Shown here: piece after piece, positions 1,332 through 58,708 of the stretch
Position numbering within the stretch: position 1 is the stretch's first letter
Layout: the number at the start of each line of letters is the position of its first letter
Source: Bacteroidales bacterium
GTDB lineage: Bacteria; Bacteroidota; Bacteroidia; Bacteroidales; F082
Assembly (NCBI GenBank): GCA_016290215.1
Contig: JAEETH010000005.1
Span: 41,169 to 105,168 of the forward strand
DNA length: 64,000 nucleotides
Direction of reading: 5' to 3'
Notes under the pieces: generated by a model
Told to the model about the DNA's origin: nothing
Databases searched by the model: none
Seen by the model: the letters and a program-made list of their open reading frames with translations, nothing else
Translations under genes and position numbers: made by a program

Positions 1332-1439
1332 CGCCTATAAATCAACGGAGGTTGTAGCCAATCTCATTGGTTTTTTTGAAAACCATAAAAGATGAAAATT
1401 CAAATAATTAAAAGTAATATGGAAATCAAGTTTTTACAA

Positions 1440-10400: not shown

Positions 10401-13400
10401 ATGTTCCTATTGGCTTCGTTGAGCGATGACTTCAACGATGGTGTCATTGCCCCTGAACTGTGGACATACACTGGCAATGCCGTCCTGGAGGAGGATGGTC
10501 TACTTAAGCTTCAACAGAACGTCACAGACCAGGATGTGCTTCTCCGTTCGGTCGACATGCAAATCCCTGAAAACGGGAAAGTGATCATGGATCGCAGATT
10601 TATGGTACATTATTCATACGAATACTATTATGGACGTAATACCATCCGACTAAACGGCGATTCAAATTCTTTCATCCAAATAGATTACATCTATACATAT
10701 TATTATGATGATTCCTACCATAATGACCTAAAAACGGGAATCTATCTCATCACCAAATTGGACGGGGAGTTATCGGAAGTCAGACTCTGTGATTTAAGCT
10801 TCGACACATGGCTTACTGAGTATGTGGAAGTGGACTTTACAGCTGGAACATTGTCCTACATTATGGACACGTTAGTGGCAACGGTGACGATTCCAGGACT
10901 TGCGGAGCAGACGGTGAATTACTACAATGTGGAATATGGTCCCTACGGTTGGTGGACAGGCCATCAACATTATATGGACTATATCAATATCACACCTGAG
11001 TCTAGTAGCATCATTGCAGCCACGGTTGAGCCCGCCGATGGCGGAACGGTCACTGGTGGAGGCACATTCGAATTTGGTCAAACATGCACCTTGACAGCTA
11101 CACCCAACGAAGGCTACAACTTCATGTATTGGACCGAAAATGGTGTAATGGTTTCATCGGATGCCATTTATTCCTTCATAGTTACTGGTGATAGGGATTT
11201 GGTTGCCAATTTTTCTGAAGGAGAATCGGTATGTAATATTGTCTTCGATTTGTATGACTCTTATGGTGATGGCTATACAGGTAATTATTTGGTTGTGAGT
11301 TATGGTGGTATTACTGAACAATTTACAGTTGAGAGCGGTTCGTTTGCCTCGTATTCTCGTGAAATAGCAACAGGAAGCGATATTTCATTGTCTTGGATTC
11401 AAGGATCATACCCAGAGGATTGTTCCTTTGACATCAAGTTCGAAAATGGTGTTTTAATATATCATGGGTCAAATCTTAATGATGGTTTCCAACATGAACT
11501 CGACATCAATTGTGCAGTCGCCAATGCGCCACGCCTCATTTCAGCTATCGCCATTCCCGAGGAAGGTGGTTCTGTTATGGGTGCTGATATTTATGAAGAA
11601 GGTTCTACTTGTACTTTGACGGCATTACCTAATGAAGGATATCGTTTCTATTATTGGGCAGAGAATGGGGGTATTGTCTCGTCAGAGGCAAATTATTCAT
11701 TTGTTGTATCTGCCAACCGAGAGTTGTTGGGCATCTTTGGACCGCCGTTGCTCATTTCGGCTACTGCTAACCCAACGGAAGGCGGCACGGTGAGCGGTGC
11801 TGGTGAATACGATTACAATAGCACCTGCACGTTGACGGCAACAGCCAATGAAGGCTATACTTTCATGTACTGGACTGAGAACGGACAGCAAGTTTCTTCT
11901 GACGCTACCTATTCTTTCACCGTTACTTCTAGCCGCAATTTAGTGGCTCACTTCTCACTACCACTGACTATCAACCTCTCGGTGGAACCAATGGAAGGCG
12001 GTACAGCCACTGGTTCTGGCATAGTTGATTATGGCAATACCTGCACGTTGACGGCAACACCAAATCCAGGTTATTTGTTCTCCTATTGGACCAAAAACGG
12101 AAATGTGGTCTCATACGTGTCTCCATATAATTTTACGGTGACGGAGAATGCAGACTATGTGGCACATTTCGAGGTTGCTCCAGAGGAGGGTATCTGTATC
12201 GGAAATCCTGAATCTGCCAACCAATACTTGCCCAGCTATTCCGTTTACAACTACACCCTTTCACAACAAATCTACACTGCCTCGGAGATTGGCACGGTAG
12301 GCTTGATCAACACTTTGTCGTTCTATAACACAGGAGGAACAAAGACGCGCAATTACGATATCTATTTGGTGCACACTGACAAGACGACATTCGAAAGTGC
12401 TACAGACTGGATTACCGTGACAGAAGTCGATCACGTATATAGTGGCGACGTGGACATGACCCAAGGCTATTGGACCACCATCGTTCTTGACACGCCTTTT
12501 GCTTACGATGGGATCTCCAACCTCGCTGTTGTCGTGGACGATAATTCAGGAAATTGGACAGGTTGGCCATACATGGATTGTCGCGTGTTTAATACCAATG
12601 ACGTTCAGGCTATTCAAGTTTACAGCGATGGTACCAATTACGACCCATTCAATCCATCTGGCTACATCGGTACGCGTCATTCGGTGAAGAACCAAATCAT
12701 CTTGGGGTTCTCTTCAACCTGCCACTTCATCATAGCAGGCAACTGGAGCACAGCCTCTAACTGGAGCAATGGCACTTTGCCACAAACCGTTGATGAAGTT
12801 TTCATCGACGCCCCTTGCCAACTTGACCAAGATGCCAAAGTGGCCATGCTGACCGTTTCGGGCGGCCAGTCGCTCACCTTGCAATCAGGCCAAACGCTCA
12901 CCGTAACGAACACCTTGAACAATACGTCAACTTTAGGCTTAATCATCGAGGACGGTGCCCAACTCGTTCATGCCTCTGAAAACGTCAGCGCAATGGTGAA
13001 GAAAAACATCGCAGGTCATGGCACGAGCAATGGCAAATATTGCCTTATCTCCAGCCCGCTTACTGAGGCTGTCGACCCTGAAATGTCAAATGTCTATCAC
13101 CTCCTCAGAGGCAGTTACGACCTCTACGACTGGCTTCCTAGTGCCTCAGATCGCCTTGAATGGAGAAACTTCAAGGACAACAACTTTATGATGTATCCCG
13201 ATGGTTTTGGTTACCTTTATGCCAACCGAAACGGCGTGGAGCTGAACTTCCCCGGCATCCTCAATCCCAGCAGATACCGCTTTGGCAAAGCCGTAAGCTA
13301 CGATTCAAGTGATACCGAGCATCCTGGCTGGAACCTTATCGGCAACCCCTTTATGTGTAATGCCAAACTTGTCAATGCCAATAATGAGCCTGTGTCTTAC

Positions 13401-43728: not shown

Positions 43729-46700
43729 TTAATGATTACACGCCTTGATAAGACGAACAGATTGTCCTGCCCCTCTGGATCCATATGAATCATCATTTAA
43801 AACAGATTCGGTAAAAGCGAGGCCATACGCATATGGTTGGCCACCATAACTAGATGATGACCAATAAAAACCAGCAGAATAAGGACCAGGACCTCCATTC
43901 ACACCGTTACGATAACCTGCAGCAGGAAGGAACACTGCTCCATGAGATTCAAACGAATTCAGCCAAATAGATTCTGTAATTGTATTACTATTAAAACTCG
44001 CATTTCCATTATTGGTGTTGACTAAACTATAGTAGTTAGTACTCCAATTGTCAGGAAGCAAAATAACTCCTTTTACATCGTTAACCTTGGCTTTTGCGTA
44101 ACGGACGCCAGACACAGTAGAACGCACTGTAAAGACATATATCCACTCGTCTTTCGTCAGTGTACGCCATTGGTTAATTGCATTGCCACCATTACTGATA
44201 TCATTATACCCCCAGTCGGCCTGTCCCGTCTGATCATAGAGATTGAATGAGAGACTTCCATAAGCATAATAGTTATTAGCATCGCCATTTGTTGACCAGG
44301 GCTGGTAACAGACTGCACCATGGTTAAAACCGCTTGTAGCCCAGCAAAATAAATCTCTATCAACGCCATGTTCTTCACTGAATTGTCCGTTATCCCCAAG
44401 ATAATCCCACTGGTTGTCGGCAAACTTCCAGTAAGGCGTGCTGGCACTACCTATGTATTGTAGGTTGCCTTGAGAGAAATAGACTTGGTCGCCATTAGCA
44501 TTTATTGTGAATAAACCATTTATTGCGCCAACTGGAATAGATGTTTCAAAGTTTGCCACCAAAGATATATTTCCACTCACCGTGAAGGAATAGGAAGCAT
44601 TGTTAGATACCACGCTACCTCCTTCCGTCCAATTGGTAAATTCATATCCAGAATTAGCAGATGCCGTTACCGTGCAAGACTGGCCATAGTTGTAACTACC
44701 ACCTCCACTTACCGTGCCACCGTTGCTCGGGTTGGCGGAAACGCTAATCGTGTAGCTTTGTGCTTGGAATTGCGCCACAAGGGTTCGGTTACCACTTACC
44801 GTAAAGGTATAGTTGGCATTGGTGGAGACTTGGCTGCCGTTTTCCGTCCATCTCAAGAAGGTATATCCTGTATTTGCCGAAGCGGTCACCGTGCATGATT
44901 GCCCCTGCTGGTATGTGCCGCTACCACTTACCGTGCCACCATTACTTGGATTGGCAGATATAGCTATAGTGTAACTCGGTATTTCAGAAGTAGTGAAATT
45001 CACCTCACTTCCGTAGGCCGTGCCTTGGCTGTTGATGGCGTAAGCGCGCACATAGTAGGTGGTGCCTAGAGAAAGTCCACTCATGTTTACGGTATAGCTT
45101 CCTGTGCCTGTACCATTGCTGGCATGGCTGCTGCTGGTGGTCGGGTTATGGCTCGTACCCCAGCAGATACCACGTTCGGTTACGTTGGCACCTCCTGTGG
45201 CCGTCACATTGCCGCCACCTGTGGCCGATGTTTGGGTGATGTTGGTAACTTCACTAGTCGTTACAGTCGGCAACGTCACTTGCATAGTAAAGTTTGCCAC
45301 CAACGACCGGTTGCTTGTCACCGTAAAGCTGTAATTTACATTGGTAGATACTTGTGTTCCGTTCTCTGTCCAATTGGTGAAGGTGTAGCCGCTATTGGCC
45401 AAAGCGGTCACCGTGCACGATTGCCCCTGCTGGTATGTGCCACCACCACCCACCGTGCCACCGCTACTTGGGTTGGCAGAAACGGCAATGGTATAGCTCG
45501 GTAAATCCGAAGTGATGAAGCTAACCTCACTGCCGTAAGCCGTGCCTGCACTATTGATGGCATAAGCCCTCACATAATATGTTGTGTTGGATGTTAGGCT
45601 TGTCATGTTTACCGTGTATGTGCCTGTTCCTGTTCCGTTGTTGGCATGGCTATTCGATGTGGTCGGGTTATGGCTCGTGCCCCAACAAATACCACGTTCG
45701 GTTACGTTGGCTCCGCCTGTGGCCGTCACATTGCCGCCGCCCGTAGCGGAGGTTTGAGTGATGTTGGTCACTTGGGATGTAGTCACTGTGGGCAAACCCG
45801 CCGCTGTAGTGAAAGTCACCTCACTTCCGTATGCCGTGCCTTGGCTGTTGATGGCGTATGCGCGCACATAGTAGGTGGTGCTTGGAGAAAGTCCGCTCAT
45901 GTTTACGGTGTAGCTTCCTGTACCTGTGCCATTGCTGGCATGGCTACCGCTGGTGGTCGGGTTGTGGCTTGTTCCCCAACAGATACCACGCTCGGTTACG
46001 TTGGCACCACCACTGTTGGTTACATTGCCACCACCTGTAGCCGAGGTCTGCTGTATGTTGGTCACTTGGCCTGTCGTAACGGTAGGAAGGGTTATCGCCT
46101 GCTGTGTCGTGAAGCTAACTTCGCTGCCATAGCTCGTCCCAGCACTATTGATAGCGTATGCCCTCACGTAATACGTCGTACCAGGAGTCAAGCCTGTCAT
46201 GTTTACGCTGAAGCTGCCCGTGCCCGTTCCGCTGTTGGCATGGCTGCCACTGGTGGTCGGGTTATGGGATGTGCTCCAGCAAATGCCGCGCGCTGTCACG
46301 GTGGCTCCGCCACTGTTGGTTACATTACCGCCACCTGTGGCAGTGGTTTGCTGTACGTTGGTCACTTGGCTGGTGGTCACCGTCGGGGCACTCACGTTCT
46401 GTGCCGTGGTGAAGTCCACCTCGTTGCCGTAGCTCACGCCAGCGCTGTTCTTGGCGTAGGCCCTCACGTAGTAGTGGGTGTTTGCTGTCAGACCGGTCAT
46501 GTTCACCGTAAAGCCACCAGTGCCGGTGCCGTTGCTAGCATGGCTACCGCTTATCGTTGGGTTATGGCTCGTGCCCCAGCATACACCGCGCTCGGTCACC
46601 TCCGCGCCGCCTTCGTTGGTCACGTTGCCGCTGCCCCGCGCCGAGGTCTGCGTGATGTTGCTCACCTCGCCTGTGGTCACCGTCGGGAGTGTGGCCTGTG

Positions 46701-48543
46701 TGGTCAGCGTCTTCTCACTGCCGTAGGCCGTGCCTGCGCTATTGGTGGCGTAGGCCCTCACATAGTAAGTGGTGCCTGGGGCAAGGTCGGTCAGCTCTAC
46801 GGAGAAAGTACCTGTACCCGTTCCACTGCTGCCATGCGTACCTGCCGTGGTCGGGTTGTGGCTCGTGCCCCAGCAGATACCTCTCTCCGTCACGATGGCG
46901 CCGCCTGCGTCGGTCACCTCGCCGTGTGCCGTGGTGTCGCTGATGTCACCCGTCACCACCGTGGGCAAAGTGGCTGCCGTGGTGAAGTCCTTCTGTTCGC
47001 CATAGGTAGTGCCTTGGTCGTTAGTGGCGTAGGCTCTTACGTAGTATTTCGTTCCTGGAGTGAGGTTGCTTATGCTCACAGTGTATTCCCCTGTTCCCGT
47101 GCCGCTTTGGGTATGGTTGCCGCTGGTGGTCGGGCTGGGACTGGTGCTCCAGCAGACGCCTCTTTCCGTCACTGCGCTGCCGCCCTGGTCGGTCACCTTG
47201 CCATGGCCCTTGGCCGTGGTCGAGGCGATGTCGGTAACATCGAGGGTCAACACCTCAGGCAGGCCTTCCAAGGCCGTGAAGCTCACCTCAGCGCCATAGG
47301 CCGTGCCTTGGCTGTTGGTGGCGTAGGCTCTCACATAATAGGTGGCATTGGGCGTGAGGTTCGTCATGCTTACGGTGTAGCTGCCCGCACCTGTGCCACT
47401 GCTGGCGTGGATGCCGCTTATCGTGGGGTTATGGCTTGTACCCCAACAGATACCTCTCTCCGTCACGTTGCTCGCGCCTTGGTCCGTCACCTCTCCACCG
47501 CCCTTCGCGCTGGTAGCGGTAATCTCGGTGATGCCCGAGGTGGTCACCACGGGCAGGCCTTCGGTGGTGGTGAAGGTGAGGTCTTCGCCGTAGGCTGTCC
47601 CCTTGGCGTTGGTGGCATAGGCGCGCACGTGGTAAATCTTATTAGGTGTGAAACCCGTCATAGCCACTTCAAACACACCCAAGGTGGCATCCGTGGCTGC
47701 GGCATGGCTGCCGATAGTGGTCGGGGTGGCGCTCAAGCTCCAGCACACACCGCGTTCGGTCAGTTCGAGGCCGCCGTCACTGGCCACGTTGCCCATGCAG
47801 GTGGCCGTGGTGGAGGTCACATTACTTACTTCAACAGTGGAGACTTCGGGAAGCAGGGCTTCGGCCAAAGTCTCAAACTCCAGCACCTCGCCAAAGCCGA
47901 TGCCGGAGGCGTTCTTCGCATAGGCGCGGACGTAGTATTTCGTGGAAAAGGATAGACCTTCTATGCGTAACGTATATTGTCCCACACCGCCCGCAGCATG
48001 TTGCATCGTCTCGTCGTCCAAAGTCGGGTCGCCGTAGGTGTTCCAGCAGATGCCGCGTTCGGTCACCTCCTGTCCGCCTTCTGCCACCACCTCGCACTTC
48101 ACGCGGACGGTGGTGCTGTCCAAGGCCATCACTTCCAATGTCTTCACCAGCGGGGAGTCGGCAGGCGTGGCGAAGGTCTTGGTCTCGGTCTTGTAAGGTT
48201 TCGAAAAACCGTAGTCCACCTCGTAGCAGTAATGGTATTCCGTGCCGGGTTGAAGACCTATTACTTCCACGGTATAGTCCGTTCCATCAATGTCGGCCAC
48301 AAAGGCATGGGCATCGGCGAGGTCGTTCCTCTTCCCTACTTGCATCTTGATGCCATTGATCTTGCCGTCATAGGTATACACGCCAGAGACGGTGACGGTG
48401 GTCGGGGTATAATGGAAATATTCCCGTTCGAAGGTGATGGATTGGATGTTGGGCTCGTTGTCCTTCTTGCAGGAAAACAACAATGCGGCCAAGGCGATGG
48501 CCAGGATTGCGACGCTTAATATGCGGTTTATTTTTCTACTCAT
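43729..48543 (-). CDS. Large fibronectin-repeat lipoprotein with InlB repeats and FISUMP-like end
   Basis: 1,604 aa from the ATG at 48543. Lipoprotein signal with lipobox LLFSC (about residue 24). One divergent FN3-like domain is followed by ten repeats of about 95 aa marked by VTERGICWGTSHNPTTSG and TYYVRAYA.NS.GTAYG; three divergent InlB B-repeats (GGTV.GGGTYQQGQSCTVTA) lie between and after the last ones; a FISUMP/DUF1566-like domain ends in GQSVRLI. The later repeats are nearly identical in DNA, showing recent homogenisation. Probably surface-exposed; binding target unknown. The C-terminal domain is related to those in the 1440-15164 gene. Confidence 0.9.
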   Translation of the reverse strand: MSRKINRILSVAILAIALAALLFSCKKDNEPNIQSITFEREYFHYTPTTVTVSGVYTYDGKINGIKMQVGKRNDLADAHAFVADIDGTDYTVEVIGLQPGTEYHYCYEVDYGFSKPYKTETKTFATPADSPLVKTLEVMALDSTTVRVKCEVVAEGGQEVTERGICWNTYGDPTLDDETMQHAAGGVGQYTLRIEGLSFSTKYYVRAYAKNASGIGFGEVLEFETLAEALLPEVSTVEVSNVTSTTATCMGNVASDGGLELTERGVCWSLSATPTTIGSHAAATDATLGVFEVAMTGFTPNKIYHVRAYATNAKGTAYGEDLTFTTTEGLPVVTTSGITEITATSAKGGGEVTDQGASNVTERGICWGTSHNPTISGIHASSGTGAGSYTVSMTNLTPNATYYVRAYATNSQGTAYGAEVSFTALEGLPEVLTLDVTDIASTTAKGHGKVTDQGGSAVTERGVCWSTSPSPTTSGNHTQSGTGTGEYTVSISNLTPGTKYYVRAYATNDQGTTYGEQKDFTTAATLPTVVTGDISDTTAHGEVTDAGGAIVTERGICWGTSHNPTTAGTHGSSGTGTGTFSVELTDLAPGTTYYVRAYATNSAGTAYGSEKTLTTQATLPTVTTGEVSNITQTSARGSGNVTNEGGAEVTERGVCWGTSHNPTISGSHASNGTGTGGFTVNMTGLTANTHYYVRAYAKNSAGVSYGNEVDFTTAQNVSAPTVTTSQVTNVQQTTATGGGNVTNSGGATVTARGICWSTSHNPTTSGSHANSGTGTGSFSVNMTGLTPGTTYYVRAYAINSAGTSYGSEVSFTTQQAITLPTVTTGQVTNIQQTSATGGGNVTNSGGANVTERGICWGTSHNPTTSGSHASNGTGTGSYTVNMSGLSPSTTYYVRAYAINSQGTAYGSEVTFTTAAGLPTVTTSQVTNITQTSATGGGNVTATGGANVTERGICWGTSHNPTTSNSHANNGTGTGTYTVNMTSLTSNTTYYVRAYAINSAGTAYGSEVSFITSDLPSYTIAVSANPSSGGTVGGGGTYQQGQSCTVTALANSGYTFTNWTENGTQVSTNVNYSFTVTSNRSLVANFTMQVTLPTVTTSEVTNITQTSATGGGNVTATGGANVTERGICWGTSHNPTTSSSHASNGTGTGSYTVNMSGLSLGTTYYVRAYAINSQGTAYGSEVNFTTSEIPSYTIAISANPSNGGTVSGSGTYQQGQSCTVTASANTGYTFLRWTENGSQVSTNANYTFTVSGNRTLVAQFQAQSYTISVSANPSNGGTVSGGGSYNYGQSCTVTASANSGYEFTNWTEGGSVVSNNASYSFTVSGNISLVANFETSIPVGAINGLFTINANGDQVYFSQGNLQYIGSASTPYWKFADNQWDYLGDNGQFSEEHGVDRDLFCWATSGFNHGAVCYQPWSTNGDANNYYAYGSLSFNLYDQTGQADWGYNDISNGGNAINQWRTLTKDEWIYVFTVRSTVSGVRYAKAKVNDVKGVILLPDNWSTNYYSLVNTNNGNASFNSNTITESIWLNSFESHGAVFLPAAGYRNGVNGGPGPYSAGFYWSSSSYGGQPYAYGLAFTESVLNDDSYGSRGAGQSVRLIKACNH
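44950..47960 (-). repeat. Tandem array of about 290-base FN3 repeats
   Basis: Ten units of about 285-300 bases, most similar around the TERGICWGTSHNPTTSG codons. The repeat has no spacer structure of CRISPR type; it codes for protein. Expected to vary in copy number by recombination. Confidence 0.85.
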
Positions 48544-48627
48544 GTCTATAGGTTTTATCAATAGAGGCTTATTGAGTGCAAAATTAGTCTATTAATTCTC
48601 ATATTCTACTTTCAACACACATTTTTT

Positions 48628-48697: not shown

Positions 48698-49801
48698 ATG
48701 CTTGCAAAGTTCTCTGTCAAAAACTACCGAGGTTTCCCAAAAGAAATCATCTGGGATCTTTCTAAACCAAGCAATTATGAGTTCCATCCTGAGGCTATAA
48801 AGAATGGCATTATCAAGAATGGTATCATTTATGGCCCCAATGGGTCGGGAAAAACCAACTTGGGATTGGCCTTATTTGACGTCGTGAACCACCTTTCCCA
48901 AAAATGGAAAAAACCTGATTATTATGGCAATTACGTTTATGCCGGCCATCCTCTCGAACCAGTAGAATTCAAATATGTCTTCCGATTTGACACAAAAACC
49001 GTTGATTATACCTATTCGAAAGACTCCTATGGTGACATTAAGACGGAGTCTCTAACAGTAAATCGAAAAATTGTGTTTCAGAGAGACTTGGTTCAGGTAA
49101 AACTAGACAAAAAGGCATTCCCGAGTATCAATGAAAAAGCGATAGAGAATCTTAATGTTCATGCCAACAATTTCTCTTTCGTGAATTTCCTGCTAACCTC
49201 TATGCCTCTACCTAAAGACCATTATCTTCTTCAACTTCAGCAGTTTGCTAATTCAATGCTATGGTTTAGATGCTTGAATGTCACAGAGTTTATTGGTTTA
49301 GAAACCAACGGTACTATTATCGACGAATACATCATCCGCAACAACTTAGTAAAAGATTTTGAGACGTTTCTCAAAGAAACAAGTGGCCAGGTTTTTGTTT
49401 TTGACACACCCAATCCAAACGACAAACGTCTTTATTGTCTTTTTGAAGGCAACAGAGTCTCTTTTCACAGCATTGCCTCCACAGGTACGGAATCTTTGGA
49501 ACTGCTCTATTATTGGCTATCGAAAATGAATCAAACACAATTCGTTTTCATTGATGAATTTGATGCATTCTATCATTACAAGCTTTCTTTTGCAGTTTGT
49601 AAAAGGCTTTTCAATCTTGATAGTCAAGTGTTTCTCAGCTCGCACAACACCAGCCTGATGACCAATGACCTGCTTCGTCCTGACTGCAACTTCATTTTGA
49701 ACAACAACAAGATCAAACCACTTTGCGACTGCACCGACAAGGAACTCCGTTGGGGTCACAGCATTGAGAAATTGTATCGTGGTGGAACATTTAATATTTA
49801 G
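48698..49801 (+). CDS. AAA/ABC-type ATPase of a two-gene defence-like module
   Basis: 367 aa. N-terminal KNYRGFPKEI and Walker A GPNGSGKTN (about residue 46), a signature-like STGTESLELL, Walker B FVFIDEFDAF (about 284) and H-loop SSHN (about 314). This is the AAA_15/AAA_21 (OLD-like) type without its own nuclease domain. The Toprim-like gene starts three bases after its stop. Such pairs (RloA/RloB, AbiLi/AbiLii, PARIS-type) act against phages in known cases; which branch this is cannot be settled by eye. Confidence 0.85.
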   Translation: MLAKFSVKNYRGFPKEIIWDLSKPSNYEFHPEAIKNGIIKNGIIYGPNGSGKTNLGLALFDVVNHLSQKWKKPDYYGNYVYAGHPLEPVEFKYVFRFDTKTVDYTYSKDSYGDIKTESLTVNRKIVFQRDLVQVKLDKKAFPSINEKAIENLNVHANNFSFVNFLLTSMPLPKDHYLLQLQQFANSMLWFRCLNVTEFIGLETNGTIIDEYIIRNNLVKDFETFLKETSGQVFVFDTPNPNDKRLYCLFEGNRVSFHSIASTGTESLELLYYWLSKMNQTQFVFIDEFDAFYHYKLSFAVCKRLFNLDSQVFLSSHNTSLMTNDLLRPDCNFILNNNKIKPLCDCTDKELRWGHSIEKLYRGGTFNI

Positions 49802-49804
49802 GGT

Positions 49805-50581
49805 ATGATACTTTTCGTTTTTGAAGGGAAGGAAAGGGAGGTCAATATTTTCAATGCCCTCAAGCAGTTGTTCTTCAACAGCGATGAAGTCATTGTTGAA
49901 TTTACATACAATACTGGCTTCCATACTTTATTCAAGGAATTAAAAGAGAACGGCATGTCGTTGTTCAGGGTTTTACAGGAAGCATCGAAAAAACGAGAGA
50001 ATGACACGCTAGGCGCATACACTGAGGACGATTTTTCGGAAGTGTTTCTCGTTTTTGATTACGATTTTCACTACAAGTTCATTCCTCTTGAACAATGGAA
50101 CGACAACCTTAGGGAAATGCTAGCCTTTTTTAACGATGAAACGGACAATGGCAAGATGTATGTGAACTATCCTATGGTGGAATCCATCAGATACACGAAG
50201 CAGTTGCCCGACAAGGACTACTACAAATACACCATAAAAAGAGATGATTGTCCAAAAAAGAAAGGGGATCCGACAAGTGGTTTCAAACACAAGGCTGCAG
50301 CGTTCTCTGCATACAAGGGACTTGATTTCATCCAAATCAACGACAATAAAACTCCTACAGAGCGGAAAATTGTCCGCAAGAATTGGAATCTCCTCAAAAG
50401 GCAGAATGTTGCCAAAGCGAATTATCTCTGCACTGGACGAAACACTTTTCCTCGCAAAAAGAAACTGTTTGATCAATTAAGCATATTCGAGAATCAATGC
50501 ACAAAATATGTCCAATCCGAGCCATGTTGCGTTTCAATTCTCAATTCCTTTCCGATTTTCTTGTACGAGTATTTTAAGTAG
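49805..50581 (+). CDS. RloB/Toprim-like partner of the ATPase
   Basis: 258 aa. The N-terminus ILFVFEGKERE has the Glu of a Toprim motif and VFLVFDYDFHY (about residue 77) the DxD motif; the rest is helical and Lys-rich (RKNWNLLKRQNVAK). This fits RloB/AbiLii-type proteins, proposed nuclease or effector partners of the preceding ATPase. It lies three bases downstream, so both are in one operon. No terminator of clear quality follows; weak GTCACAAA/TTTGTGAC arms lie at 50666-50692. Confidence 0.75.
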   Translation: MILFVFEGKEREVNIFNALKQLFFNSDEVIVEFTYNTGFHTLFKELKENGMSLFRVLQEASKKRENDTLGAYTEDDFSEVFLVFDYDFHYKFIPLEQWNDNLREMLAFFNDETDNGKMYVNYPMVESIRYTKQLPDKDYYKYTIKRDDCPKKKGDPTSGFKHKAAAFSAYKGLDFIQINDNKTPTERKIVRKNWNLLKRQNVAKANYLCTGRNTFPRKKKLFDQLSIFENQCTKYVQSEPCCVSILNSFPIFLYEYFK

Positions 50582-50738: not shown

Positions 50739-51539
50739 TTACCAAGCATAGCCCAAGCCAAGTTTGCCTTCGAGGGTTTGGAAGTTGGTGGTGACGGCTT
50801 CGGCAGAGAGGACGAAACCGCTCAGGTGGAGCTGGAGTCCGGCGGAGACATCCACACCTTGCACGCTGTTGTCCTTCATCTTGTACCATTGGCCGTCTTT
50901 ATCCTGCCAACAGTGATTACGCACGCCGTAGCCCGCACCCACTCGGATGCAGAGCGGATCGGCAACACGAATCATGCAGCCAGCGATGATAGAGAGGCGG
51001 TCGGTAGTGGTTTGGCCGTTATACATGGGCAGGTAGCCACCCTCCACAAAACCCTGGGCATCGGCCTTCGGCAGGTTACCCATACCCGTGAAGCCGCCGT
51101 TGGTCATGGCACTGACAAACCAACCGAAATGTTTCACTTGACCCACGCTGAAGCCAAACGACAATTGAGGAGCAAAGGAATAAGCCACATTGGCCGTAAC
51201 GAAGGTTTCCTTGCGCCACTTTTCCTTCAGCTTAATGCTCAGCTTGAACTTAACATTGTCGCTCTCGAAAGTGGAGAACTCCTTCAGCACATCCCATGTG
51301 ATGCTTCGGTTGTAACCCGAAGGCACATCCTTGACATCACCTTCCACTTGTTTCAGCGGGCCACGAAAGGTGGTGCCACCATCAGTGGAGACATACAAAC
51401 GCACAAACTCGGCTGGTTGGCTGAGGTCGTACTCAATAACAATCTTGTCGCCTATCTGGTGGACGTCCACAATTTGTTGGGCGAACGACGGCAGGGCAAA
51501 ACCCAATGCCACGGCAAGGATAAGTAATAATCTTTTCAT
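50739..51539 (-). CDS. Exported beta-barrel-like protein of the caspase cluster
   Basis: 266 aa from the ATG at 51539. Signal peptide MKRLLLILAVALG to SFAQ, an N-terminal fibronectin-like strand region (VDVHQIGDKIVIEYDLS, VRLYVSTDGGTTFRGPL), then alternating strands ending in LGLGYAW, a C-terminal aromatic as in outer-membrane proteins. Last gene of the minus-strand unit, ten bases after the caspase gene. Function unknown; a membrane partner of the exported proteins is possible. Confidence 0.75.
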   Translation of the reverse strand: MKRLLLILAVALGFALPSFAQQIVDVHQIGDKIVIEYDLSQPAEFVRLYVSTDGGTTFRGPLKQVEGDVKDVPSGYNRSITWDVLKEFSTFESDNVKFKLSIKLKEKWRKETFVTANVAYSFAPQLSFGFSVGQVKHFGWFVSAMTNGGFTGMGNLPKADAQGFVEGGYLPMYNGQTTTDRLSIIAGCMIRVADPLCIRVGAGYGVRNHCWQDKDGQWYKMKDNSVQGVDVSAGLQLHLSGFVLSAEAVTTNFQTLEGKLGLGYAW

Positions 51540-51549
51540 CTTTTTTTTG

Positions 51550-52461
51550 TTATTTGAGTTTGCGTTTTCTCCAAGTGTCGGCCAACGATGAACTGGCATT
51601 GGCCACAGGGGTCTGCATCTTCGAGTTTTCCACCATCGACATTCTGGTCACTTTGTCATTAATAAAGTCGGCCAAGTCGCCATAGTTCACATCACCTTTC
51701 GACTCTTGAAGCTTCTTCAGCAGGAAATAAGTGAACATGCCATGCGACTTGTCCTGATAGATATAGGCTGTTTCGTCACCCTGCGCTGCGGAGAAAACCA
51801 CGGCGTTGCCTCTCAGCTGTCCGCTCTTCGACTTCACGGCGGCACCACGGCTTTCGGCCATCATGACACCATTACGGTTGGCACCGCTGAAACAGGCATC
51901 AATGAAATAGGTGATTGATTCTGCACTCGATGTACCCAAATCAGCATATAACTTGTCAAGACTATATCCCGATTCAGGATCGGTGGCATAGCCGTCCACA
52001 GGTAGCAGATAGGCATTGCGGCTCGACTCATCGGGGATGCCATGCCCAGAATAATAGACGATGCCTTTGGCCTCGCCTTTATACGCAACGAAAGTGTTTT
52101 TCAGCCAAAGCACCTCATGCTTCATATTGTTAAGCGTGGCATTGCGTTCCATACGGATGTTCTTCTCAGGAATGCCGAGTGCTTGGATGCAATACTGGCG
52201 AAACACTTCGCCGTCGTGAAGGGCAAAAGGCACATTCTGCTCTTTCTGGTAATCCTCGTTGGCGAAGATGACCACAAAGGTCTTGTCGTTAATGGTTTTG
52301 GATTGTGGAATGTTGACATCCACGTCCGACTGGCGAACTTCGTTTCTCGTATTGGCTGTGCCGATGCTGAAGCTGAACACGTCCGACTCCAAGTCTATGG
52401 TTTGGGCTTTACCAATAAAAGCCATCAAGGCTATTGACACAAAAAGTAAAGTACGTTTCAT
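51550..52461 (-). CDS. Exported caspase-like (C14) cysteine protease
   Basis: 303 aa. Signal peptide MKRTLLFVSIALMAFIGKAQ, then a p20-like domain: VVIFANEDYQ, YYSGHGIPD with the catalytic His (about residue 138) and YFIDACFSGA with the catalytic Cys (about 186). FSAAQGDETAY follows as in orthocaspases. Both catalytic residues are present. No membrane segment beyond the signal, so it acts outside the cytoplasm. Its start codon overlaps the DUF4384 stop (TAATG). Substrate unknown. Confidence 0.88.
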   Translation of the reverse strand: MKRTLLFVSIALMAFIGKAQTIDLESDVFSFSIGTANTRNEVRQSDVDVNIPQSKTINDKTFVVIFANEDYQKEQNVPFALHDGEVFRQYCIQALGIPEKNIRMERNATLNNMKHEVLWLKNTFVAYKGEAKGIVYYSGHGIPDESSRNAYLLPVDGYATDPESGYSLDKLYADLGTSSAESITYFIDACFSGANRNGVMMAESRGAAVKSKSGQLRGNAVVFSAAQGDETAYIYQDKSHGMFTYFLLKKLQESKGDVNYGDLADFINDKVTRMSMVENSKMQTPVANASSSLADTWRKRKLK

Positions 52462-53354
52462 TATTCTTTGGTGATTTCAATGGGTTTGACAACAACTTGC
52501 ATTTTCTTATCCAAGCGACGGTTTTTCAACAGCCAGCGTTGGAAGTCCTTGTAGGAAAGATAGCGGGGTAATTCCAGCTCCTCCTTTCCCACCTTGACCT
52601 TCATGGGAGCTGAAGTGTCGTTAGCTTTCACGAAAGGATTGGGCGAAAAGATGACATAGAGCATATCCCGTTCAAGATTCTTCTCACAGGTCAACACATA
52701 TTCATCGCAAGCCTCACCGTTTTCGGCATGGTTGGACGAAAACAACACGTAAGGTTTGTTGGCTTTCACTTCGAACATGCCATCTGTGTCGCTGGCGTAC
52801 GGTAGGAAACAATAGGCATCGCCTTTGTCATCCATCAGATAGACGGCAAGATAGCCTTGTGAGGGTGACTGGAAGGAGAGATAAATGTCATCGCCGTTGC
52901 GGAACTGGTCATCCTCAAATCGGCTTAGTGTACCGTTTTTAAGCACCTTGACACTGATGTCGATAGGCACGGAGACAATCTCACGCGCCAAGCCCCACAC
53001 ATGAGCAGTCACCATGAGGAAATCTTCCTCGTACGACACTTCCGTGACAGGATCCCTTGTATCTTTCAGCCATTCGCCTTTCACGGTGCTTTCGCCCAAA
53101 GCCAGCATGTTGATATAGGAATTGCCGTTCTCGTTCTGCTGGCGGGTATAGGTGGTTTGTTCAATCAAGGTACCGAATTCGTTGGCCAAGGCTTGGATGC
53201 GTGCCTGCTCAATGGCAGTGGCCCGAGCCGACTCAAGACTGACATCTTGAGGAGTATAATAGGTGTATTCCCCCTCCACCCTACGCTCTGACTGGGCGAA
53301 GAGTGAAGCGGGAAACACCAGCGTCAGAAGAATAACAACAATCTTTCTTGGCAT
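52461..53354 (-). CDS. Exported DUF4384-domain protein
   Basis: 297 aa. Signal peptide ending SLFAQ, an N-terminal LPP20-like alpha/beta region (ARATAIEQARIQALANEFGT), then DUF4384 (FRNGDDIYLSFQSPSQGYLAVYLMDDKG, about residues 155-245). DUF4384 is known to accompany caspase and serine-protease genes in several phyla. Translationally coupled to the caspase gene, so the two probably act together in the periplasm or at the outer membrane. Confidence 0.82.
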   Translation of the reverse strand: MPRKIVVILLTLVFPASLFAQSERRVEGEYTYYTPQDVSLESARATAIEQARIQALANEFGTLIEQTTYTRQQNENGNSYINMLALGESTVKGEWLKDTRDPVTEVSYEEDFLMVTAHVWGLAREIVSVPIDISVKVLKNGTLSRFEDDQFRNGDDIYLSFQSPSQGYLAVYLMDDKGDAYCFLPYASDTDGMFEVKANKPYVLFSSNHAENGEACDEYVLTCEKNLERDMLYVIFSPNPFVKANDTSAPMKVKVGKEELELPRYLSYKDFQRWLLKNRRLDKKMQVVVKPIEITKE

Positions 53355-54115: not shown

Positions 54116-55579
54116 TCACTGATTTTCACCTAATATAATCGACCAAGGCTCAGAGGCGGAAGGACGATAATAGCCTTCCCAAACGGGATAGCCGTCGGCG
54201 AGCACCTGCAAAAGCTGTGCCTTGTCCTGCTTGGCAAATGGAATCTCTATGCGAAACTGTCCGAAGGCATCGGTCTTCACCTCCATATCCTGAAGGCGTA
54301 CCGTGGCGTTGGCCACCGGATTACCCGTCTTGAAGTCGGACACACGACCGAAGACCACGCCGAGTTCATTGTTGCGACGGATAGGCAAGCTGAAGGCCTT
54401 TTGCACCTGCACAACCGTATCGATAGGCAGATAGCCTTCGGCTTCAAACATGACATGCACCTGTGCGTTTCTATATTTATAAGGAATATCGTTCAGGAAC
54501 ACCGAATGGTTTTCAGCGGTCAGCGGGAAGGTCTGCACGGCATTGTCGGCATACTCGCACGTCAGCGTGCCTTTTTCGAAAGGCAGGTTAGGAATACTGT
54601 ACGCCTTGTCTTCGGAGATATTCACACGCATCTGATAAGGCGTGGCCAAACGCCAAATGAAGTAGGCAGCGCAAGCCAGCAAGGCAAGTGCCACGCATCC
54701 TATTAGATAAAACCTTACCTTACGCGAGGTCCCTGAGCCCGTCGAAGGGCCGCTATGTATGTAACCATCCTCTGCCAATCGCTTGATGATTTCCTCATAA
54801 GCCACATCGGCGAACTTGCGCACATAGCCCAGTTGGTAGTCGAAGTTCTCCATCTCCGGGTTAGCCGAAAGCGGTGCAGCCTGCTTGGTGGCCACCATGA
54901 AGCACCCCGTGTTTTTCCAGCGTTCCATGAAGTCCTTGGCAGGATATCGCTGCTCCACATCGGGATGCGAGGGGTCTTTCACCACCACCTTCAAGTTGTC
55001 CTTGTCTGTGGTATCAATACCGACAACCAGCATCACATGTTGCGCACCGTCATAGCCAAAGGCGGCATCTTCTTGTTCGGGGTTGTCGTTGTCGACACCA
55101 ACGATGATCTTATGACCTTGGCTCAGCTCATGCATGATGTGATAGATGCCGGCATTGCGCATCTGCACCGACTCCACGCCGTATGTGTTGAGCAGCTCAC
55201 CCACAAAGTCGAATGCACTGCCTTTGCCTTCCTCGAACCAACCGTTCTTCTTGGCCAGTTCAGTCAGTTCCTCCGTGGTGGTCTCGATGCCATAGTTACC
55301 CAGCACCATCTGTTGTGCCTTGATGGCGCAGTCCATCTTCTCGGATGCAGCAGCGATAGCGTAGTCGTCGTAACCAATCATCGACTTGGCAAAGACGGAG
55401 GGACTGGAGGCAATGTCGGCCTGATAGGCGAGTTCGGTCCGGGCCATCATCAGGTCGTCCATGGCCTCGTCGTTTTCGGAGAGATAGGCTTCAACGGCAG
55501 AACGTTCCTCTTCCGTCAAGTTACCTTCGAGGTAACAGGCTATCATCTCATCCGTGATTTCAATTCTGTCGTTGTTCAT
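54116..55579 (-). CDS. Membrane anti-sigma-like protein with a C39-type cysteine protease domain
   Basis: 487 aa from the ATG at 55579. N-terminal anti-sigma-type helix pair (EMIACYLEGNLTEEERSAVEAYL, residues 9-40), then a C39-like papain-fold domain: DCAIKAQQMVLGNYG with the Cys (about residue 83), GAQHVMLVVG with the His and VKDPSHP with the Asp. One membrane helix follows at about 287-308, then an outer carboxypeptidase-regulatory-like domain (GRVSDFKTGNPVANATVRLQ). The protease and anti-sigma parts would therefore both be cytoplasmic. It overlaps the sigma gene by four bases. A TGSGT-coding repeat sits between protease and helix. Confidence 0.82.
   Translation of the reverse strand: MNNDRIEITDEMIACYLEGNLTEEERSAVEAYLSENDEAMDDLMMARTELAYQADIASSPSVFAKSMIGYDDYAIAAASEKMDCAIKAQQMVLGNYGIETTTEELTELAKKNGWFEEGKGSAFDFVGELLNTYGVESVQMRNAGIYHIMHELSQGHKIIVGVDNDNPEQEDAAFGYDGAQHVMLVVGIDTTDKDNLKVVVKDPSHPDVEQRYPAKDFMERWKNTGCFMVATKQAAPLSANPEMENFDYQLGYVRKFADVAYEEIIKRLAEDGYIHSGPSTGSGTSRKVRFYLIGCVALALLACAAYFIWRLATPYQMRVNISEDKAYSIPNLPFEKGTLTCEYADNAVQTFPLTAENHSVFLNDIPYKYRNAQVHVMFEAEGYLPIDTVVQVQKAFSLPIRRNNELGVVFGRVSDFKTGNPVANATVRLQDMEVKTDAFGQFRIEIPFAKQDKAQLLQVLADGYPVWEGYYRPSASEPWSIILGENQ
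54728..54751. repeat. In-frame 24-base palindromic repeat in the anti-sigma gene
   Basis: On the coding strand it differs by one base from nqrF 29632-29655 and codes for the same peptide, GPSTGSGT, in the same frame. Confidence 0.85.
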
Positions 55580-56160
55580 ATTTCTTTTTCTTTCAATAGG
55601 GTTCTCAATTCCATTCTTGCTTTCTTCGTCAGGTTGTAGACTGCCGAGACGGTGCATCCCATCTCTTCGGCGATGTCGTCGGCGCTCTTGCCTATCAGCT
55701 CTGCCAGCAACGCATAGCGCTCGCGTGGCTTGGAGAGGCGATCGATGGCCTTGTAGAGTTCGAGGCGGGTCATCTCATTCATGATGTCGTATTCGTCGGC
55801 CTCGTTCTTCTGGGTTTCTACAATCAATTGTGGCTCTACCACCACCAATTTGGTCTGATTGATGCGTTTTTTCTTGAAAAATCGTACTGCAATGACCGTC
55901 AACCAAGTGTTGAGCGATGACTTGAACTCAAACTTCCGCAAGCGGTTCCAGTCGTTTTCGCAGAGATAGAGATAGAATTCGGTAATCAGTTCCTCTTTCT
56001 TGCCCTGCGACTGAAACACGCTGTGGATAATATGGGCAAACATGCCGTTGCAGCGATGGAAAAACACATATTCGACCGCTTCCTGGTCGTTGGCCTGGAG
56101 CAACCTGACCAATTCACGGTCGGGAAGGCTGTCGAAATAGGCTATTCTTCTATCGTACAT
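55576..56160 (-). CDS. ECF-type RNA polymerase sigma factor
   Basis: 194 aa. Region 2 around EYVFFHRCNGMFAHIIHSVF and WNRLRKFEFKSSLNTWLTVIAVRFF, and region 4 helix-turn-helix KSADDIAEEMGCTVSAVYNLTKKAR. Start at ATG 56160; the stop overlaps the anti-sigma-like gene (ATGA), typical of a sigma/anti-sigma pair. The adjacent exported proteases and lipoproteins are its probable regulon, by proximity. Confidence 0.9.
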   Translation of the reverse strand: MYDRRIAYFDSLPDRELVRLLQANDQEAVEYVFFHRCNGMFAHIIHSVFQSQGKKEELITEFYLYLCENDWNRLRKFEFKSSLNTWLTVIAVRFFKKKRINQTKLVVVEPQLIVETQKNEADEYDIMNEMTRLELYKAIDRLSKPRERYALLAELIGKSADDIAEEMGCTVSAVYNLTKKARMELRTLLKEKEI

Positions 56161-56169
56161 ATAGGTTTG

Positions 56170-57186
56170 TTAGTTGTTGAGTTGTTGCTTTATCTTGTCA
56201 ATCTTGTCCTGCACCTCGATGCCCTCAATGACATTCAGCATTTCATACATACGCAAGGCCTTGTTGAAGTATTTCTTTGAAGCCTTCTCCCAGCCTCTCT
56301 CCTTGTAAATCACACCGAGATAGGCGCATGACTTGGCGTATTTGGCACCCGATGTCGCAAAGTCGCTTTCAAACAGGTTGGCGTAGGTTTGCAGCACCAT
56401 GATGTCGGCATACAGTGAATCAGTAGTGGGGATTGAATCCATTCCCGCTTTCGCCATCATTTCTTCTGGATCCTGCAACGGATAGGTCGAGGAGAAATCC
56501 GTATAGGCTTGGAGTACGGTTTCGTATGTTTGGCCACTCACCATGGCCATAGCACCTTCCATGTCGTTACCTTTCAGTTTGGAAACAAGTTCCTTTGTTG
56601 TGGCATCCGTGTCGTCCTCATTGACACGGGCAAAGGCGTATGCGTAATCGTCCATGGTTTGATAAGCACGTTGCAACTCGTTCTCAGCCTCCAGCTTCCA
56701 GTACTGGTATTCAGGCAACGAAAGACGATGGCTGGCATAATTCTCATCAAGAACGCGCATTGTGGCATCATAGCGTGAGATGCATGCAGTTTCCAAAAGG
56801 TCATAATAACGCATCCTTGCCTCGTTGATTTTAGTTGATGGAGCCATTACGATACGCAAGGTATCGCGATCGGTGAGCGTCCAGCCGTCGCGAGTGATGT
56901 GGACATTGACCACCTCGTAGCCATACTTCTTGGCTTTTAGGCCATGCACCACATCGCCCGTCTGATGTTCCCAGAAACTCAGCCTAAACACGCCGAAGGC
57001 GTCACTTGAAGTGGGATGGCAATCATGCGCCGATGGCACTGTGACGGATACGCCGCTCAATGTCTTGCCTTTGGAGTTCATCTCCACCACCTTGCCATAT
57101 TGCACCATCTGTGCCGAAGCCTTCCCACAATGCAGGAAGGCAAGCATGACAATGCCATAAGACAAAAATCGTATTATTCTATTCAT
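56170..57186 (-). CDS. Exported protein with carboxypeptidase-regulatory-like and TPR-like parts
   Basis: 338 aa. Signal peptide to ASAQ, an N-terminal beta domain (KVVEMNSKGKTLSGVSVTVPSA, DAFGVFRLSF) like the outer part of the anti-sigma-like protein, then long helices with TPR-like spacing (CAYLGVIYKERGWEKASKKYFNKALRMYE). Ends nine bases before the sigma gene start. Probably periplasmic, a possible signal partner for the sigma/anti-sigma pair; inferred from context. Confidence 0.78.
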   Translation of the reverse strand: MNRIIRFLSYGIVMLAFLHCGKASAQMVQYGKVVEMNSKGKTLSGVSVTVPSAHDCHPTSSDAFGVFRLSFWEHQTGDVVHGLKAKKYGYEVVNVHITRDGWTLTDRDTLRIVMAPSTKINEARMRYYDLLETACISRYDATMRVLDENYASHRLSLPEYQYWKLEAENELQRAYQTMDDYAYAFARVNEDDTDATTKELVSKLKGNDMEGAMAMVSGQTYETVLQAYTDFSSTYPLQDPEEMMAKAGMDSIPTTDSLYADIMVLQTYANLFESDFATSGAKYAKSCAYLGVIYKERGWEKASKKYFNKALRMYEMLNVIEGIEVQDKIDKIKQQLNN

Positions 57187-57235: not shown

Positions 57236-58708
57236 CTAAAAAGTTACCACTATTGGGTTGTGCGGCCTCATGCTTGGCATACTCATGCCAATATCGGCAC
57301 CGATATAGGTTGGGTCGCAGGCTATATATTTCTTGTTGCCCAGCATTAGATAGTCGCCTTCGACATTTTCGGTAAAACATACCGCCGTGGAAAGGTGCTC
57401 GGGATAGTCAAGCAACACCACGTCTAGCCCCATCAGTTCACGAACCAAGCAGGCAAATAGTATGGAGCGGTCTTCGCAGTCGCAGTATGGATAATACAGC
57501 GACTCGTCGGGATAGAGCGGACGTTCGTAACCAAATTGTTGTTGGTCGGTGGCATAGTCAAAGCCAGTTTGAACGAAGTTGATGAGGATGTTGGCAGCTT
57601 GAGTTTGGGTCTTGCCTTCAATAGCCTTGCGCAGAAAAGGATAAAGCGATTCTTTGGCCTGATCACTCAACGATGCCATTGAGTACAACTGCCATTCGGA
57701 ATTAAGTGGGCAGCTGTTGTAGAAGTCAATCAAGTTTTGATTCAAAGCGACCGTGACCTTCACAGTTGGAAAACGCTTAGATACATGTGTTTTGGGTTCT
57801 GTTTTCCTGACAGTCAATTTGGGTTGACTCATCACAAGACTCATCAATTTTTCCTTTGGAAAAGCACAGTTGAAGATTTGGATAGATTTATGATCTATCG
57901 AATTATCAAAGCAATAGTATTTTATGTCGTTGATTCTGTAGAACCTATAACGGTAGATTTTAGCATCGGAACCTAATAAAGCACAAAGCCGATTGCCAGC
58001 TCTACCGATCCGCATCTGATAACCGGATTGGATAAGCAGATACATGTGGAGGACGACCGCTTCGTTGGTATGGCCACCGCAAAAAGATTCGGCGACCTGC
58101 TCGGTCAACATGACATAACCCCAGTCACAAAGGTTCAATTTGGTGCGGTTTTGAAGGCACTCGGCAATCATATTATCGAAAACCGGATCAGATAATTGCT
58201 TCCACAATGCAGACACACTTTTTTCTGAAGCATCCTTCATGTGCAAAGAGCTGGCATCAGGCAAATGGAACACTATGTCAGTTCCGTAGAATCTGATGAC
58301 GGTTTCAGGAGCGTTTGGCTTAACCGTTGGAGATATAGGCTCGACGGGTTCTGGACGTACGACTGGAACAGGTGGCACAGGTTTGTTCTCAACGGGAATT
58401 GGTACAGGTTCTGGATGTGAATTTGGGTCAACCAAAACGGGAGTTGGAGGTTTAGGTAGTTTAGGGATTTCCTCGGCGGGTTGCGTCTCGAAAGCCGTCC
58501 ATGGGTCGGCCATGAAACGAGCATATTCCTCGTTGGCTCTTCTGCGGAAATCGTTATATTCTTGTTGTGCTTGTTGACGGAATTTCTCGTATTCCTCCCG
58601 GGCATTCTGTTGGGACTCACGAACCCGTTGGTCCCAATCCGTGTCAACTTGTGCAAACAGCGACAAAGCTGTCACGCAAGCCAATGCAGTCATTATCAGT
58701 CTTTTCAT
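57236..58708 (-). CDS. Exported transglutaminase-like protein with proline-rich linker
   Basis: 490 aa. Signal peptide MKRLIMTALACVTALSLFAQ, a charged coiled-coil segment (residues 28-68: repeated EEY..FR.QA), a Pro/Val-rich linker (PVPIPVENKPVPPVPVV, about 80-125), a middle domain, then a transglutaminase-like fold: YCDCEDRSILFACLV with Cys (about 413), HLSTAVCF with His and CDPTYIGADIG with Asp. All three residues are present. The enzyme is exported; it may be a protease or crosslinker. 49 bases separate it from the next gene of the unit. Confidence 0.82.
   Translation of the reverse strand: MKRLIMTALACVTALSLFAQVDTDWDQRVRESQQNAREEYEKFRQQAQQEYNDFRRRANEEYARFMADPWTAFETQPAEEIPKLPKPPTPVLVDPNSHPEPVPIPVENKPVPPVPVVRPEPVEPISPTVKPNAPETVIRFYGTDIVFHLPDASSLHMKDASEKSVSALWKQLSDPVFDNMIAECLQNRTKLNLCDWGYVMLTEQVAESFCGGHTNEAVVLHMYLLIQSGYQMRIGRAGNRLCALLGSDAKIYRYRFYRINDIKYYCFDNSIDHKSIQIFNCAFPKEKLMSLVMSQPKLTVRKTEPKTHVSKRFPTVKVTVALNQNLIDFYNSCPLNSEWQLYSMASLSDQAKESLYPFLRKAIEGKTQTQAANILINFVQTGFDYATDQQQFGYERPLYPDESLYYPYCDCEDRSILFACLVRELMGLDVVLLDYPEHLSTAVCFTENVEGDYLMLGNKKYIACDPTYIGADIGMSMPSMRPHNPIVVTF

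Follow-up and report, generated by a model that had tools for sequence, protein, structure and literature searches.

The release of sigma factors by anti-sigma factors, whether membrane-bound or soluble, is mostly put down to outside proteases or to ligand-driven changes. In class I anti-sigma factors, a coevolution study (PMC7406223) places helix H1 in contact with region 4 of the sigma factor (sigma4) and helix H4 in contact with sigma2, with a flexible linker joining H1-H3 to H4. RsgI, according to PMC12203970, cleaves itself in its periplasmic domain and still requires RseP and ClpXP. For the EACC2/caspase systems, coupling of a peptidase domain to an extracytoplasmic function (ECF) sigma factor has been proposed (PMC8195603), and the terms C39, papain-like and anti-sigma do not occur in that paper. 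Here we analyze a 64,000-nucleotide stretch of a Bacteroidales genome (the window; the genome comprises 3.8 Mb in 153 contigs, with a completeness of 85%), which encodes an ECF anti-sigma factor carrying an inserted C39 peptidase domain. We propose, with some reserve and at somewhat less than an even chance, that this domain acts as a cytoplasmic gate of the anti-sigma clamp and frees the co-encoded sigma factor upon an envelope signal.

The domain order read in the first-pass annotation (anti-sigma helices, C39 domain, membrane helix, outer domain; Table 1) is borne out. A survey of homologues recovered the same order in 11 further loci (L089-L099), which together with the window form branch A; L074 and L075 are the same as L094 and L095. 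These relatives belong to metagenome-assembled genomes of uncultured Bacteroidales or Bacteroidia, some of whose record titles mention yak abomasum or horse faeces. The helix pair of that annotation appears in the AlphaFold2 (AF2) model, which is weak for these helices, as three predicted helices plus a separate fourth. The outermost domain matches CarboxypepD_reg below the Pfam cut-off (E 2.4e-6, 28.2 bits, cut-off 32.3). The listed open reading frame (ORF) starts at ATG 55657, inside the sigma gene. We preferred ATG 55579 (MNNDRIEITDE...) because likeness among the relatives begins there, and their starts were set by the same rule. With this start the protein has 487 residues, and its gene overlaps the sigma stop by 4 bases.

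The window protein has a C39 fold. Pfam matched Peptidase_C39_2 (PF13529) at residues 84-203 (E 6e-8, 33.8 bits, cut-off 24) and PF03412 (E 1.1e-4, 22.5 bits, cut-off 22); L094 lies above the C39 profile cut-off and L097 below it. A search of solved structures by sequence gave no meaningful match, C39 peptidases included, so that the evidence for the fold comes from Pfam and the model. Pfam found no ATP-binding cassette (ABC) domain in the protein. Homologues were checked for loss of catalytic residues across 40 C39 domains (12 from branch A, and 10 and 18 from two further branches, B and C, described below; all rows retained): neither Cys84 nor His181 varies in any of the 40, and residue 202 is an Asp in 32 domains and an Asn in 8. 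The complete Cys-His-Asp triad is present in 12/12 branch A proteins.

The C39 domain is also under strong constraint. Compared with the distant members L094-L098, the most conserved parts are the C39 domain (49-53% identity), the short stretch that follows it and H4 (57-87%), while H1-H3 reaches 25-48%, the membrane region 12-26% and the outside part 36-47%. When the nearer L093 is compared, conservation is slightly higher in H1-H3 than in the C39 domain. The ratio of nonsynonymous to synonymous substitutions (dN/dS) in four pairs was 0.025, 0.080, 0.028 and 0.051 for the C39 domain and 0.247, 0.071, 0.097 and 0.456 for H1-H3. These low C39 values, and the return of the layout in 11 loci beyond the window, indicate that the layout is not due to chance. 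A dead, drifting C39 domain was rejected as the simplest reading, since dN/dS and the invariant Cys and His favour function. In the otherwise variable linker before the domain, Ser66 of the motif h[FY]x[RK]S[MIL] is invariant in all 12 branch A proteins.

The predicted topology agrees with the first-pass annotation. In a test that took only the maximum 19-residue hydropathy and used no signal-peptide program, the best value in branch A fell on the helix that follows the C39 domain (at least 1.93 in 12/12), and the proteins of branches B and C reached at most 1.43 (28/28). The C39 domain is predicted to be cytoplasmic, as it precedes the membrane helix and relatives with the same order are soluble; from these maxima, a location outside the membrane is unlikely.

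The position of the C39 domain within the anti-sigma factor is best seen from relatives that lack it. Among 173 genomes of the same GTDB family, 52 matched at least one part of the protein (E 0.001), 17 matched the C39 part (E 0.01) and 7 contained the full layout. Sixteen of the loci retrieved (L008-L023) have the outer domains and lack C39; the N-terminal part is also matched in 15 of them, the other (L021) being truncated by a contig end. H3 (ELAY) runs directly into an H4-like stretch in L008 and L009, a native H4 is kept in L018-L020, L022 and L023, and H3 is almost directly joined to the membrane helix in L010-L017. L059 and L060, from the genomes of L008 and L009, are operons whose genes are arranged as in the window (transglutaminase-like, TPR-like, sigma, anti-sigma, lipoprotein-like), with a C39-less anti-sigma factor. 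The core anti-sigma factor is therefore presumably functional without this optional module. In the window protein, about 190-205 residues, including the C39 domain, sit between H3 and H4. Because a linker joins these parts in class I anti-sigma factors, the insertion lies in the hinge of the clamp. This placement, absent from the first-pass annotation, is the main hint at a mechanism.

The 12 branch A C39 domains form one clade in the C39 tree (100/99), and the grouping of the 12 C39-bearing rows as one clade is rejected in the outer-domain tree (approximately unbiased test, p 4.75e-7), long branches limiting both trees. This conflict implies exchange or loss of the module. The two trees contradict the idea, which we considered, that this anti-sigma lineage gained C39 only once; the test does not reject a single loss common to L008 and L009 (p 0.259).

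The proteins of branches B (10) and C (18) lack the membrane helix. A sigma-profile match stands just upstream of 6/10 branch B genes and, on the same strand, of 15/18 branch C genes, counts made, like the one for branch A, with a profile partly built from the sigma genes that it then scored. Three of the branch C matches are weak and involve proteins of 300-360 residues (L047, L051, L052). The other three branch C loci (L042, L043, L044) have no same-strand upstream match, and the sigma-like neighbour of L044 is divergent. The other four branch B proteins (L078, L103, L065, L100) lack the H1-H3 part; no sigma gene was found upstream of L078 and L103, and L065 and L100 start near contig ends. 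The record of L100 is labelled Clostridia in its title. In an independent NCBIfam check of 10 upstream proteins, TIGR02937 matched nine, two of them above the cut-off, and the tenth (L071, 344 residues) matched another sigma family (1.5e-5). Pfam gave no family for two of the four short branch B and C sigma proteins submitted (L066, L069), nor for the long neighbour in L070.

Among the neighbours in branch B are GTPases recognized by Pfam (dynamin-like in L066, double-GTPases in L067) and proteins that by eye resemble Hsp70. In L066-L068, an ECF sigma gene is followed by the gene for a soluble H1-H3 plus C39 protein and a large GTPase-type gene, with Hsp70-like genes recognized by eye. The GTPase-type gene is a dynamin by Pfam in L066 (PADLOC LeoA, 6.3e-19) and a double-GTPase in L067. 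Judging from this gene content, these loci look like a sigma-controlled stress or defence system. In branch C, a RyR domain was found by Pfam in L069 (PF02026, 1.6e-32) and by eye in most other proteins, L079 and L082 being exceptions. A neighbour of 292-293 residues follows the protein in L069, L050, L079, L081 and L083. TIR-like proteins lie near L069 and L071 (by eye) and adjoin L082, which has no RyR domain (PADLOC, 5.9e-9). In the C39 tree, rooted at the midpoint, A and B stand apart from C (100/97), and B as one group is poorly supported (47/45). An order-level scan matched 15/393 genomes: the window, two from branch A, three from B, seven from C and two with H1-H3 alone. A viral origin was also considered; tblastn of one viral contig set found no relative.

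By domain profiles, the anti-sigma identity of the N-terminus falls below Pfam cut-offs: zf-HC2 matches the window protein with E 0.061 (13.9 bits, cut-off 22.2), and the branch C relative L082, in which an Hx3Cx2C motif is visible by eye, with E 0.0082, likewise below the cut-off. A sigma factor is co-encoded, as the first-pass annotation had noted; its gene lies directly upstream on the same strand, and TIGR02937 matches it above the cut-off. The sigma gene is coupled to the anti-sigma gene in the window and in 11/11 further branch A loci (the sigma ORF of L094 has just 91 residues). A profile covering H1-H3 plus C39 (A3) matched 30/395 genomes of the phylum: the window, the branch B proteins L102 and L103, five proteins of very large size that contain a C39 part, and 22 that match by the H1-H3 part only. 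The same sigma profile as above has a match upstream of 20 of these 22, and one of the remaining two is a FecR (L124). These H1-H3-only matches beside sigma genes support the anti-sigma reading. The five very large proteins (L107, L109, L115, L117, L121; open frames of 1086-2766 residues) come from one other family of the phylum, and their C39-like part spans roughly residues 395-675 of the available part of the ORF.

We propose that the membrane-anchored anti-sigma factor would hold its sigma factor at the membrane, with the H1-H3 bundle gripping sigma region 4 and H4 gripping region 2, as family knowledge and gene order suggest. The envelope signal would reach the periplasmic domain, which may act together with the TPR-like neighbour, and the action of the C39 gate would separate the two gripping parts and release the sigma factor. 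The position of the C39 domain, its constraint and its recurrence after H1-H3 in soluble proteins, which are unable to use intramembrane cutting, point to it as the inner gate. The likeliest single way, although still a doubtful one, would be a cut in a flanking linker that depends on Cys84 and is made in cis or by a neighbouring molecule; the linker motif around Ser66 may be a cut or docking site. The invariant Cys and His favour cutting, which is ranked slightly ahead of sensing. Several findings weigh against the self-cleavage suggested in the first-pass annotation. Position Cys-6, which we take from ComA to be that of the oxyanion-hole Gln, carries Gln in 10/10 branch B proteins and in none of branch A (0/12; Ala78 in the window) or branch C (0/18), counted by distance from Cys because the MAFFT alignment slips at this column. 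Thus, the triad called intact in the first-pass annotation is present, and the fourth catalytic element is missing, which counts against cutting in branch A. Moreover, the genome has a gene for an M50 peptidase (site-2 type), and the anti-sigma factors of L059 and L060 lack the module. The suggestion of release without a site-1/site-2 cascade is therefore unsupported; given the M50 peptidase, a standard cascade, alone or in addition, is possible.

Other roles for the C39 domain have to be considered. It could be a gate that does not cut, binding a cytoplasmic peptide or small molecule (or undergoing Cys oxidation) and thereby shifting the H1-H3/H4 clamp, much as the substrate-binding C39-like domains of toxin exporters act without catalysis. 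We regard this as nearly as likely as cutting. HlyB has lost the catalytic Cys, whereas Cys84 and His181 are kept in all 40 domains compared, and a pure binding domain need not retain both. Less probable still is an active peptidase that acts on another cytoplasmic protein, be it the sigma factor, a further regulator or a leader peptide, and that the anti-sigma part only localizes. C39 peptidases usually cut leader peptides in trans, and branch B retains Gln-Cys-His-Asp in 10/10 proteins. However, of the window genes compared, relatives of the sigma gene occur beside five of L094-L098, of the TPR-like gene beside four and of a downstream exported gene beside one, in a comparison that included neither an all-against-all search nor a search for small leader peptides. 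We give an equally low probability to a passive domain, for example one for spacing or stability. The C39-less orthologous operons fit such a role, as does the M50 peptidase, which is also encoded in 14/14 control genomes. However, the C39 domain, the following stretch and H4 are the parts best conserved against L094-L098, and soluble proteins, for which a membrane step is out of the question, also carry the module behind H1-H3.

Extending the gate with cutting to the whole family, mainly in Bacteroidota, is rather improbable: a cytoplasmic cysteine-peptidase domain of the protein's own, placed in the hinge, would open the clamp by Cys-dependent cutting, with no need for intramembrane proteolysis. 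If true, the signals would come from the envelope in branch A, a GTPase/Hsp70-like system in B and a RyR-bound ligand in C.

The remaining neighbours in the window are listed in Table 1. A TPR-like relative lies upstream of sigma in 11/12 branch A loci, the window included; L095 has none. Downstream of the sigma operon, 50739-53354 contains the C14 caspase-like peptidase, the DUF4384 protein and a further exported-looking neighbour. Paralogous operons (L061, L062, L064) combine sigma, a C39-less anti-sigma factor, C14 and a relative of the same exported-looking neighbour. On the opposite (+) strand, 48698-50581 holds an AAA_21 ATPase gene followed by a gene for 258 residues, resembling an ATPase/partner pair. 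Two large ORFs lie at 1392-15164 (4590 residues) and 43729-48561 (1610 residues, with many similar repeats of ~90 residues by eye).

Table 1. Coordinates of the anti-sigma factor, its parts and neighbouring genes in the window.
Feature	Position	Strand	Remarks
Anti-sigma factor with inserted C39 domain	54116..55579	-	487 aa + stop
H1-H3 anti-sigma helices, residues 1-58	55406..55579	-	AF2 helices 10-18, 23-35, 37-58
Linker, residues 59-77	55349..55405	-	low confidence in model; motif h[FY]x[RK]S[MIL]
C39 (papain-fold) domain, residues 78-232	54884..55348	-	
Catalytic residues	Cys84 55328-55330; His181 55037-55039; Asp202 54974-54976	-	
H4, putative sigma2-binding helix, residues 252-274	54758..54826	-	AF2 helix 252-270
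Single membrane helix, residues 285-312	54644..54727	-	AF2 + hydropathy
Predicted periplasmic beta domains, residues 314-487	54119..54640	-	last one carboxypeptidase-regulatory-like (409-447)
ECF sigma factor, 194 aa	55576..56160	-	TIGR02937 48.9 bits (cut-off 42.9); Sigma70_r4_2
TPR-like protein, exported (by eye)	56170..57186	-	upstream of sigma
Transglutaminase-like protein, exported (by eye)	57236..58708	-	Pfam match sub-threshold
Lipoprotein-like protein, 210 aa	53367..53999	-	downstream; no Pfam family at cut-off
DUF4384 protein	52461..53354	-	downstream of sigma operon
C14 caspase-like peptidase, exported (by eye)	51550..52461	-	downstream; Pfam E 8e-17

In agreement with the first-pass annotation, which knew of no system of this layout, no anti-sigma factor joined with a C39 peptidase, papain-like or cysteine protease domain was found described in the open literature, from which subscription papers are mostly missing; nothing was found there on an anti-sigma factor with a RyR domain either. 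With a papain-fold domain in the hinge between its grips on sigma4 and sigma2, an anti-sigma factor would be a switch complete in itself. This can be tested directly, since the operon occurs both with and without the domain and the catalytic set is fuller in soluble relatives. Some soluble-branch loci have GTPase or TIR genes that match defence-protein models, which hints at sigma-controlled defence responses. Like class I ECF anti-sigma factors of the RseA, RsiW and FecR kind, the window protein has predicted H1-H3, a separate H4, one membrane helix and a sigma gene just upstream, and the profile also matches FecR; it differs in the C39-containing stretch between H3 and H4. It shares the fold, Cys-His-Asp and the predicted cytoplasmic side with the C39 peptidase domains of ComA and PCAT1, and differs in having no ABC transporter and no oxyanion Gln and in being fused to an anti-sigma factor. 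Unlike the C39-like domain of the HlyB kind (3zua), it retains the Cys and is not an exporter. For the EACC2/caspase systems (PMC8195603), the proposed coupling of a peptidase domain to an ECF sigma factor is similar, with a caspase fold instead. The papain-fold hinge domain, predicted to be cytoplasmic, is real, recurrent and undescribed in the literature searched, whereas self-release of an anti-sigma factor is already known from RsgI. RsgI likewise starts release (PMC12203970) by a domain of its own; the candidate self-cutting domain here has a papain fold and precedes the sole predicted membrane helix, and would thus act on the cytoplasmic rather than the periplasmic side.
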